A stretch of DNA of 32,125 nt from a virus. The DNA lies in the IMG/VR virus record IMGVR_UViG_3300007513_000122, positions 1 to 32,125 of that record. One strand, given 5' to 3'. Position numbers and translations under genes: made by a program. Under the pieces are notes generated by a model. The model was not told the origin of the DNA. It saw only the letters and a program-made list of their open reading frames with translations, and made no database searches. Shown piece after piece: positions 13 through 21,505 of this stretch (its first letter is position 1; every line of letters begins with the position of its first letter).

Positions 13-417
13 CTACTCATCCTTCTTTCCCTTCAGAAGTTTTTGCAATTCTGCCGTGCTACCAACAAACAATGCATTTGTAACTTTCTCAGGAACATTT
101 TTGACTTCTTTTGTAATGTCTTTGACTTGTTGATGAAGATTCAATAGATTATTATTTTGTTCCCCAATAACTTTAATGAGTTGACCAACAACTTCATACA
201 TTCTTGCATTACCATTTTCTTTTGCTTCCATGAGTAATTCATCAAGAGCATCATGCCCACGTTCAATCACATTGTAATAATTTTCTCTTGCATATTGATA
301 GTCTGTGTCTAATTCATCATCACTTTTACGAGGTTCAATCTTTGGTGGTTTCTCTCGTTCAATCACCGCATTTTCTGCAACATTTAATATCTTGTCTAAA
401 TCTTCAAATCCACTCAT
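13..417 (-). CDS. 16: Small terminase subunit, gp16-like
   Basis: 134 aa; T4 gp16 is about 164 aa. In T4 this protein recognises concatemeric DNA and regulates the large terminase during packaging. The match is by recalled pattern. The N terminus (MSGFEDLDKILNV) has an acidic DTDYQYAREN segment near residue 38. A long helical middle includes QVKDITKEV near residues 97-105, corresponding to T4 HKDMKDITSE. The tail NALFVGSTAELQKLL (114-128) corresponds to T4 NATVFMGSPTELMDEI. The helical, charged composition fits the coiled-coil oligomer of small terminases. Its ATG overlaps the gp15 stop as ATGA, so translation is probably coupled. It follows gp15 and precedes the expected gp17, exactly as in T4. 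Confidence 0.85.
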   Translation of the reverse strand: MSGFEDLDKILNVAENAVIEREKPPKIEPRKSDDELDTDYQYARENYYNVIERGHDALDELLMEAKENGNARMYEVVGQLIKVIGEQNNNLLNLHQQVKDITKEVKNVPEKVTNALFVGSTAELQKLLKGKKDE

Positions 418-1367
418 GAGTCTACTCCTGTTTCTGGGTCACTATCTATTGCAGGATTAAATATTGTGATAGTTGTATTAGCATCAAACTCACCTGATGG
501 ATCTACATTTGCATCTTTACCTCCTACAGGTGTAATATTGATTCTGCTTATTGTATCACCCTGAACATCGCCTGTTTCAAGAAGAAAATTATCTCCATTT
601 GTAGAACTATCAAGTGTTCCATCTTCTAATCGTATATAATCTGTATTCATTATGGTACTAGATTCAAGTCTTAATTTATCAAGTTCTGGTATTGTATCAC
701 CCAAACTATCAAATTCATGAAAGTCAACTTGTACACTTTTGATAATTTTACCACCACCTTTGATATCAGGATATAAAAATCCTTTCATAAAAAAATCTAT
801 TGTCCATATCAGTGTTCTTCTTGTGCCAAACTCACCATCAAATGTATCTTCCAGTGAAGCAGAATTTATTGAAATTGGTACGTCTAATTTTATTCCTAAA
901 TCAGAAACAGCATTAATCGAGACATTAAACTCAGGTGTAAAAAATGGTAAAATCTGTTCCAATATTTGAGTGCCGTCTTCGGCATTATCTACAAAAACGA
1001 ATAATTGAAAATCCATATTATATGGAACAGGATTAAACATTTTTCTAAGTGTGCTTCCACCTTCTGATGCCGTTGCTCTACCCAAAATTTTACCAACAGA
1101 ATTTAATTTTCTTATAGGATCATATGTAAGAGATGTCAATTCAAAACCCATACGTGGTAATTGTATGGCGACCTGTCTATTAATATTTGGATCTTGTCTT
1201 ATTCGTGTAAGAAATTTTTGTTTTGGACCGTATGCAATAGGAACTTTTTGTCTAGATACAACATCACCAGACGAATTCTTCTTTTCTATGTTTAGATCAT
1301 TAAACAAAGTTCCAAAAAGAACTACGTACTTTCTAATCGTCTGATGGTAATAGGTTTGTCCTAGCAT
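414..1367 (-). CDS. 15: Tail completion / sheath terminator protein, gp15-like
   Basis: 317 aa against 272 in T4. In T4, gp15 caps the tail tube and sheath and joins the tail to the neck. The N terminus MLGQTYYHQTIRKYVVLFGTLF has the spacing of T4 MFGYFYNSSFRRYATLMGDLF. Further T4-like segments are KVPIAYGPKQKF (41-52), FNPVPYNMDF (111-120), ILEQILPFFTPEFN (135-148) and the DFFMKGFLYPD segment near 191-201. The extra length is C-terminal: residues 241-266 carry an IRLEDG...FLLETGD element of the same type as repeats in the gp7-like protein. Upstream is a 25-bp gap holding a palindromic TATAAATA box (1383-1376 on this strand), 8 bases before the ATG. There is no clear Shine-Dalgarno site. Confidence 0.88.
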   Translation of the reverse strand: MLGQTYYHQTIRKYVVLFGTLFNDLNIEKKNSSGDVVSRQKVPIAYGPKQKFLTRIRQDPNINRQVAIQLPRMGFELTSLTYDPIRKLNSVGKILGRATASEGGSTLRKMFNPVPYNMDFQLFVFVDNAEDGTQILEQILPFFTPEFNVSINAVSDLGIKLDVPISINSASLEDTFDGEFGTRRTLIWTIDFFMKGFLYPDIKGGGKIIKSVQVDFHEFDSLGDTIPELDKLRLESSTIMNTDYIRLEDGTLDSSTNGDNFLLETGDVQGDTISRINITPVGGKDANVDPSGEFDANTTITIFNPAIDSDPETGVDS

Positions 1368-1375
1368 AGTAAATA

Positions 1376-1387
1376 TATTTATAAATA
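1376..1387. promoter_or_regulatory. Palindromic, bidirectional T4-type late promoter box
   Basis: The 12-mer TATTTATAAATA is a perfect palindrome, so the T4 late consensus TATAAATA is present on plus (1380-1387) and on minus (1383-1376). It lies in the 25-bp gap between the divergent gp15 (ATG at 1367) and the plus-strand 114-aa gene (ATG at 1393). The spacer to ATG is 5 bases on plus and 8 on minus. T4 late transcription needs only this box, read by the gp55-type sigma factor with the sliding clamp. The sequence match is direct; promoter activity is inference. Confidence 0.65.
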
Positions 1388-1392
1388 GTAGT

Positions 1393-1737
1393 ATGGCCTT
1401 ATCTATAAAAAAACAAGGTATTAATTTTGAAATTGATCAGGGTTGTACCTTCTCAAAAACTATTACCGCAAAAAATGCAAATAATGCAAATGTAACGATT
1501 ACTGCAGGTTCAATTGCGGCCAGAATGCAGAAATCATATGATACGTCAAACACATCATTAAGATTAGATTTCACAACTGCAACTGAAGGATCTAACGTTA
1601 CTATTTCGGCAACCGCTACTCAAACAAATTCTATGGCTCATGGTCGTTACTATTATGATATCGAATGGACACATGACACGGTAGAAGTGGAAAGAATTGC
1701 GGAGGGCATCATTACTCTATCACCTGGAGTGACTTAA
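1393..1737 (+). CDS. Small beta-rich phage protein, the only plus-strand gene
   Basis: 114 aa. The pattern resembles a widespread small phage protein seen near head or tail genes in many tailed phages, although I cannot name a family with certainty. The N-terminal half has FEIDQGCTFSKTI (13-25) and AARMQKSYD (42-50). The C-terminal part has GRYYYDIEW followed by an ERIAEGIITLSPGVT ending (about 84-114). Predicted character is all-beta with no signal peptide or membrane segment. It is divergent from gp15 across the palindromic promoter and convergent with gp14. Both stops come from one TTAA (1734-1737), so the two genes overlap by 4 bases. The ATG sits 5 bases after TATAAATA with no Shine-Dalgarno site, so a leaderless mRNA is possible. 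It could be a virion decoration protein; function unknown. Confidence 0.8.
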   Translation: MALSIKKQGINFEIDQGCTFSKTITAKNANNANVTITAGSIAARMQKSYDTSNTSLRLDFTTATEGSNVTISATATQTNSMAHGRYYYDIEWTHDTVEVERIAEGIITLSPGVT

Positions 1738-2594
1738 AAATTACTTTCACTGAATGGATTAGATTCAGAAAAGTCTATAATTGAATCTGCTTCAGTTTCG
1801 ATTATAACATTATTTGCAGAAACATCATTGGTAAAAACTTGTGTATCTGGTGTTGTACTTAAACTATAATATGCACCACTTGAATCTCCTACAATATTTG
1901 AAGTCGCACCAAAAGTGCCAACAATATCTGTTATTTTTAAAGTCTTATCAGTAGAATTCCAAGATACAACTCTTGCTTTTGTGTTTGCAGATGCTAAATT
2001 ATCACCAACATATACTGTCTCATCATCTACATAAGCACCTGATCCTGTACCCATAGAAAGATTAATTGAATATGCAAGTGTATCTTCTATCTCATCTATA
2101 TCGTCAACTCCAGTATCAATTCTTTGATCATCATATTGAAACAATTCACATGTCAAATCAAAGATTGGAAGTTTACCAAATTGATAAAACATAGATTCAT
2201 GTTCTACAAATCTTATCTCATATAATTTTTTGTTTAATGGAAAAAATATTACATCACCCTCTAATGGTCTGTTTTGTTCTGTGATGTCCAAATTATCAAA
2301 TCGTCTTCTTGCTACTGAAAATACAACTTGATCTCGTATTTCTAATCCGAACCTAGATACAAAATCCCCTTCACCTTCAAATCCATCAACAGATTTGACA
2401 TACATTTCTATTAAATGTGCTTGATTAAATTCTGATATAGTATCTTCACCATATAGCAAATCTTCATTAACATATTTTCTAGGTAGATAATAAACATCTA
2501 TACCATAGTTTTTGATTGCTTCTATGATGAGATCTTGATGTAGATTTTGCTCTGGTGTGCTTTCAATATGATTGAAATATACGCTTGTGGTCAT
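1734..2594 (-). CDS. 14: Neck protein gp14-like
   Basis: 286 aa against 256 in T4. gp14 with gp13 forms the neck that closes the head and receives the tail. The N-terminal 150 residues closely follow T4: YFNHIESTPEQNL (6-18), DVYYLPRKYVNEDLLYGED (33-51), IEMYVKSVDGFEGEGDF (62-78) and VARRRFD (94-100). The C terminus ends in a DFSESNPF segment. Residues about 180-248 (GSGAYVDDETVYVGD... IVGTFGATSNIVGDSSGAYYSL) look inserted and match the dispersed GE/TSGA module described in the findings. The start is the 1-base TAATG overlap with the gp13 stop. Its stop overlaps that of the plus-strand 114-aa gene. Confidence 0.92.
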   Translation of the reverse strand: MTTSVYFNHIESTPEQNLHQDLIIEAIKNYGIDVYYLPRKYVNEDLLYGEDTISEFNQAHLIEMYVKSVDGFEGEGDFVSRFGLEIRDQVVFSVARRRFDNLDITEQNRPLEGDVIFFPLNKKLYEIRFVEHESMFYQFGKLPIFDLTCELFQYDDQRIDTGVDDIDEIEDTLAYSINLSMGTGSGAYVDDETVYVGDNLASANTKARVVSWNSTDKTLKITDIVGTFGATSNIVGDSSGAYYSLSTTPDTQVFTNDVSANNVIIETEADSIIDFSESNPFSESNF

Positions 2595-14963: not shown

Positions 14964-14971
14964 TATTTATG
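14964..14971 (-). promoter_or_regulatory. Candidate late promoter box for gp8
   Basis: CATAAATA differs at one base from the T4 late consensus TATAAATA. It ends 5 bases before the gp8 ATG and overlaps the gp7 stop TAA (14969-14967). The 15 bases ATAAATAATAATATG are identical upstream of gp25. AT-rich DNA makes chance matches easy, hence low confidence. Confidence 0.35.
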
Positions 14972-21497: not shown

Positions 21498-21505
21498 TAT
21501 TTATT
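21498..21505 (-). promoter_or_regulatory. Candidate late promoter box for gp25
   Basis: AATAAATA is one base off TATAAATA. It ends 5 bases before the gp25 ATG, with the same spacing and the same 15-base string (ATAAATAATAATATG) as at gp8. It overlaps the stop of the preceding small gene. Chance occurrence cannot be excluded. Confidence 0.3.

Follow-up and report, generated by a model that had tools for sequence, protein, structure and literature searches.

The 12 bp palindrome TATTTATAAATA, which lies in the short gap between gp15 and a gene on the opposite strand, is very probably a bidirectional late promoter of the gp55 type in a pelagiphage-like relative of T4, serving two leaderless or nearly leaderless mRNAs and firing in either direction, but not in both at once. 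The window, that is the whole stretch of 32,125 nt analysed here, is a 32-kb virus record whose minus strand encodes gp13, gp14, gp15, gp16 and baseplate proteins of a T4-like phage. The record is probably a fragment and holds no gp55 gene. The features at the junction are:

414–1367, minus strand: gp15, tail sheath stabiliser (Pfam PF16724, T4-gp15_tss, 5e-72; phrog_227, 8e-79, matched from residue 1)
1376–1387: candidate palindromic bidirectional late box TATTTATAAATA, a perfect palindrome, invariant in 15 sequences
1376–1383, minus strand: putative late box TATAAATA for gp15, 8 nt upstream of the ATG
1380–1387, plus strand: putative late box TATAAATA for the plus-strand gene, 5 nt upstream of the ATG
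1393–1737, plus strand: gene of 114 aa, L-shaped tail fibre assembly-like (phrog_1084, 2e-19, matched from residue 6)
1734–2594, minus strand: gp14, head closure Hc2, its stop overlapping the stop of the plus-strand gene by 4 bp

The 114-aa gene sits antisense between gp14 and gp15. Homology backs the starts of both gp15 and this gene, and misassigned start codons were rejected on that ground. Genes resembling phrog_1084 are found at further positions. One relative lies among the tail-fibre and baseplate genes of HTVC008M, another is reversed beside gp13 (L041), and a distant homologue of the window gene (29% identity, phrog_1084) has a palindromic box, TATTTATATAAATA, and adjoins gp13–gp17 (L269). 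Such a gene seems to move around the structural module.

The gap between the start codons of gp15 (1367, minus strand) and the plus-strand gene (ATG at 1393) measures 25 bp (1368–1392). According to the original prediction it should contain a palindrome with an identical box on both strands and a 4-base overlap; this was confirmed at 1376–1387, where positions 1380–1383 are common to both copies of TATAAATA. The spacing from box to ATG is unequal, with 5 nt on the plus and 8 nt on the minus strand. The 8-mer alone is unremarkable (three copies in the window versus 5.2 expected). The 12-mer occurs once versus 0.02 times expected from dinucleotide shuffles, and the chance of finding it inside a 25-bp gap is approximately 1.4e-5 under an order-1 Markov model. 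This rarity, together with a conservation exceeding that of 4-fold degenerate sites (see below), rules out a chance origin of the palindrome. A terminator or a structured RNA was rejected as well, since no terminator was found and the fold z-scores were +1.2 and -1.0. A Shine-Dalgarno (SD) sequence upstream of gp15 or of the plus-strand gene is absent on either side of the gap.

Searching with gp15 yielded 23 related loci, among which 14 close environmental relatives extend across the junction. All 14 retain the palindrome together with both spacings, so that, counting the window, the box is kept in 15 of 15 sequences with the same gene order, as would be expected of the promoter originally predicted. 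Mean identity is 97% across the 25-bp gap, compared with 64% at the 4-fold degenerate sites of gp15 and 57% at those of the plus-strand gene. In more distant contigs (L016–L020) the antisense gene is absent; there gp14 runs into gp15, and gp15 has an SD sequence. One further locus (L043) has the same gene order and a plus-strand gene with 56% identity; its 47-bp gap contains a separate late-type box for each gene. Here TATAAATA stands exactly 5 nt before the ATG of the plus-strand gene, and on the minus strand gp15 is preceded by CTAAATA and then by a leader with GGAG. The putative late boxes are separate for each gene in the L043 arrangement and form one palindrome in the clade of the window.

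In T4, the late box spans positions -13 to -6 (PMC2988020). Since it begins at -13, initiation takes place 6 nt past the box. Transferred to the window, this numbering predicts two starts which are 23 bp apart:

1370, minus strand: predicted transcription start (an A), leaving a 3-nt leader ACU before the gp15 AUG (T4 numbering, PMC2988020)
1393, plus strand: predicted transcription start at the A of the ATG, leaderless (T4 numbering, PMC2988020)

Both predicted mRNAs should be leaderless or nearly so. The distance from box to ATG fits such an initiation and SD sequences are absent at both genes, the 5' ends themselves being predictions from the sequence only. What counts against this reading is the gp15 side, where 8 nt instead of 5 would result in the 3-nt leader.

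To see how common this register is, we surveyed the distance from the relaxed consensus NATAAATA to the ATG of ORFs of at least 40 aa. In HTVC008M, a cultured Pelagibacter phage, 9 of 45 boxes are located at exactly 5 nt, with at most two at any other distance; in Mosig, another such phage, it is 7 of 56, with at most four at any other distance. The 50 kb examined of each of three other phages gave 1/20 for Melnitz, 0/12 for Syn9 and 0/30 for T4, where the commonest distance is 28. A putative late box 5 nt before the ATG is a rule in pelagiphage-like T4 relatives (HTVC008M, Mosig). The original prediction had missed this regularity as well as the (nearly) leaderless character of both predicted transcripts. 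Two more boxes in the window have the same 5-nt register:

14964–14971, minus strand: late-type box CATAAATA, 5 nt before the baseplate wedge gene in the gp8 position
21498–21505, minus strand: late-type box AATAAATA, 5 nt before gp25

For gp25 the distance is 5 nt also in HTVC008M and 8 nt in Mosig; this speaks for the gp15 spacing of 8 nt as a second permitted register. At the 5-nt register the two bases following ATAAA are TA in 100 of 104 cases from environmental T4-like loci, and further counts gave 8/8, 6/6 and 7/7. This near fixation indicates that the full 8-bp late box is selected and not merely a sigma-70 hexamer. With the palindromic sites excluded, boxes in the environmental T4-like loci still peak sharply at 5 nt (65/425), box densities in these loci being biased, as they were picked for holding the palindrome, and only those of the cultured phages being unbiased. 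As a separate observation, an SD-like sequence is present at only approximately 15% of the predicted gene starts in T4-like IMG/VR loci, whereas the T4 late region has 76%. Translation without SD sequences may thus be general in these IMG/VR loci.

Exact-pattern scans of IMG/VR were used to look for the same design elsewhere. Two ORFs were counted when each had at least 50 aa or ran off the contig and, IMG/VR being redundant, the family and not the stretch was taken as the unit of independence. The pattern CAT-N5-TATTTATAAATA-N5-ATG matched 113 stretches. In 101 of these it is flanked by two ORFs, and these cases fall into 15 families without detectable protein similarity to one another. The corresponding pattern with TATTTATATAAATA gave 33 stretches, 26 with two ORFs, in nine families. 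With a 6/6 spacing only 12 stretches were obtained (two with two ORFs), and with the permuted palindrome ATATTTAAATAT five (none with two ORFs). The 5/5 pattern had 37 matches in bacterial and archaeal genomes (257 Gb), none of which separates two ORFs. In 63 of the 113 loci, T4-type core genes, including gp17, gp18, gp23 and gp55, lie no more than a few kb away. Among the genes at recurrent sites are gp14 opposite the portal gene gp20 (L101), gp25 (L111), gp13 (L216, 8/5 spacing) and gp3 (L244). A scan with the 8/5 spacing was mixed and returned the family of the window, other families and a recurrent match inside long ORFs.

The 4/4 spacing turned out to be unfit as a negative control, since 37 of its 46 stretches separate two ORFs; the 6/6 spacing, the permuted palindrome and the bacterial genomes served instead. 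The 4/4 stretches constitute a second class of 11 families unrelated to the proteins of the 5/5 class (L273–L318), some with T4-like genes and several on contigs of 300–500 kb (jumbo-phage); an endolysin-like and a gp25-like gene are included. The existence of this class shows the preferred register to be clade-specific rather than universal. In three loci gp4 is found beside the palindromic 4/4 box CTATTTATAAATAG (L276, 2780–2805; L280, 6308–6333; L292, 4577–4602), where the frame of the opposite ATG soon runs into stops. Cultured phages have comparable sites. In HTVC008M, gp2 and gp4 are separated by a 26-bp divergent gap (L045, 18917–18942) with TATTTATATCTAAATA, two abutting late-type boxes at 5 nt from each ATG, and Mosig has TATTTATATAAATA 5 nt from a plus-strand ATG (60955–60989). 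The putative two-way design is widespread in T4-like phages, which the original prediction did not foresee. Its central idea, a compact late promoter working both ways, gains support from at least 15 unrelated gene pairs, from the dependence on register and from the lack of any match between ORF pairs in bacterial genomes.

Different explanations for the palindrome were weighed against this reading. It is improbable that the box is a one-way late promoter for one of the genes, the second TATAAATA having arisen through AT-richness and the other gene owing its transcription to an operon upstream or to an internal promoter. Indeed, AT-rich boxes easily find a partial match on the opposite strand, and read-through from gp14 across the antisense gene could reach gp15. 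However, a one-way box needs 8 bp and all 12 are invariant in the 15 sequences, neither gene has an SD sequence, and in L043 each gene possesses its own late-type box. The flanking by two ORFs in 101/113 stretches at the 5/5 spacing, versus 2/12 at 6/6 and 0/37 in bacterial genomes, is likewise at odds with one direction only. Selection for ribosome access instead of transcription would make the gap an AU-rich, SD-free translation start region. Unstructured AU-rich leaders aid initiation without SD, and the folds at this site are unstable, as the z-scores above indicate. We nevertheless consider this highly unlikely, because it is the exact 8-mer in its exact register that is selected (113 stretches versus 5 for the permuted palindrome and 12 for the 6/6 spacing), because the last two box positions are fixed as TA, and because this sequence is already known as the late promoter element of T4 (PMC2988020).

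There is also very little probability that the palindrome is the operator of a dimeric regulator or a bidirectional promoter for host sigma-70 and not a gp55 late promoter. Palindromes often bind dimers, but the half-element also stands by itself, in the same register, ahead of single genes in the window as well as in HTVC008M and Mosig. TATAAA is similar to a -10 hexamer, but a sigma-70-like hexamer pair or a -35-like element was not found at the palindrome site and the two positions past the hexamer are fixed as TA; on these grounds a sigma-70 promoter was rejected. Moreover, no match to the pattern in bacterial genomes lies between two ORFs.

A bidirectional late promoter of the gp55 type remains the preferred reading. 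According to previous work, gp55 recognises the late box alone, a -35 element being absent from T4 late promoters (PMC2988020, PMC7892883), so that a palindromic box could in principle be a complete promoter in both directions. HTVC008M and Mosig both encode gp55, a gp33-like late factor and gp45. We suggest that a gp55-type sigma factor would recognise the 8-bp late box TATAAATA without needing a -35 element and that, the box being overlapped head-to-head with its own complement, the late polymerase could bind in either orientation. RNA synthesis would start 6 nt downstream, at the A of the AUG of the plus-strand gene or 3 nt before the AUG of gp15, and the resulting (nearly) leaderless mRNAs would not need an SD sequence. 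Such an initiation may explain both the missing SD sequences and the very short gap. As the two boxes share 4 bp, presumably one polymerase at a time could occupy the site.

The likeness to the T4 late promoter, which depends on gp55, gp33 and gp45, comprises the identical 8-bp box, the lack of a -35 element and the position before virion genes (in the window gp13–gp16 and baseplate genes). It does not extend to the spacing, as the T4 boxes examined lie 13–35 nt before the ATG. The junction of T4 genes 4 and 53 (L048, 17339–17385) differs in having two separate opposed boxes in a 47-bp gap and an SD leader for each gene; it is the leadered counterpart of the compact palindromic design. Late promoters of the cyanophages S-PM2 and Syn9 share the relaxed consensus NATAAATA (PMC2984593); in the 50 kb of Syn9, however, no box stands in the 5-nt register. 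Another resemblance is to the symmetric bidirectional promoters of bacteria and archaea described by Warman, Grainger and colleagues, with overlapping -10 elements on opposite strands and an expected steric exclusion (PMC12825309, PMC10268837). In these, both directions depend on a single (pseudo)symmetric -10 element, and the starts are 7–25 bp apart (PMC10268837); in E. coli, 23 bp is among the usual start separations, and opposing polymerases exclude each other (PMC12825309). The palindrome with its predicted starts falls within this range. The bacterial and archaeal examples, however, consist of a housekeeping -10 element of imperfect symmetry and often one of the two RNAs is non-coding, whereas the window has a perfect palindrome of a phage late element between two protein genes with predicted (nearly) leaderless mRNAs. 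The T4 late promoter would here be combined with a second known element, the symmetric bidirectional promoter, and with leaderless mRNAs on both sides, a reading that the sequence evidence supports well.

Clamp loading has strand polarity, and so does T4 late activation. The orientation of the clamp reaching the box could therefore decide which gene fires and thus the direction of transcription at the palindrome. That T4-like phages of several lineages repeatedly evolved one palindromic late box for two divergent genes via leaderless mRNAs, with the orientation of the replication clamp choosing the gene and thereby tying gene choice to the direction of replication, is a tentative and rather doubtful extension. 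In view of the strand polarity of late activation, a palindromic late box offers a clean test of whether the direction of replication selects the direction of transcription.

Among open-licence papers (subscription papers were outside the search) we found no description of bidirectional phage late promoters or of leaderless T4-like late mRNAs. The palindromic two-way late box seems to be a genuine means of making gene control compact, and one that has been overlooked: a perfectly symmetric putative promoter, unchanged in 15 sequences, is flanked by two protein genes, and the design occurs at many unrelated gene pairs. Leaderless late genes would be poorly handled by gene finders and promoter annotation that rely on Shine-Dalgarno leaders. 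For the marine T4-like phages, the finding implies that late genes may commonly be translated from leaderless mRNAs.
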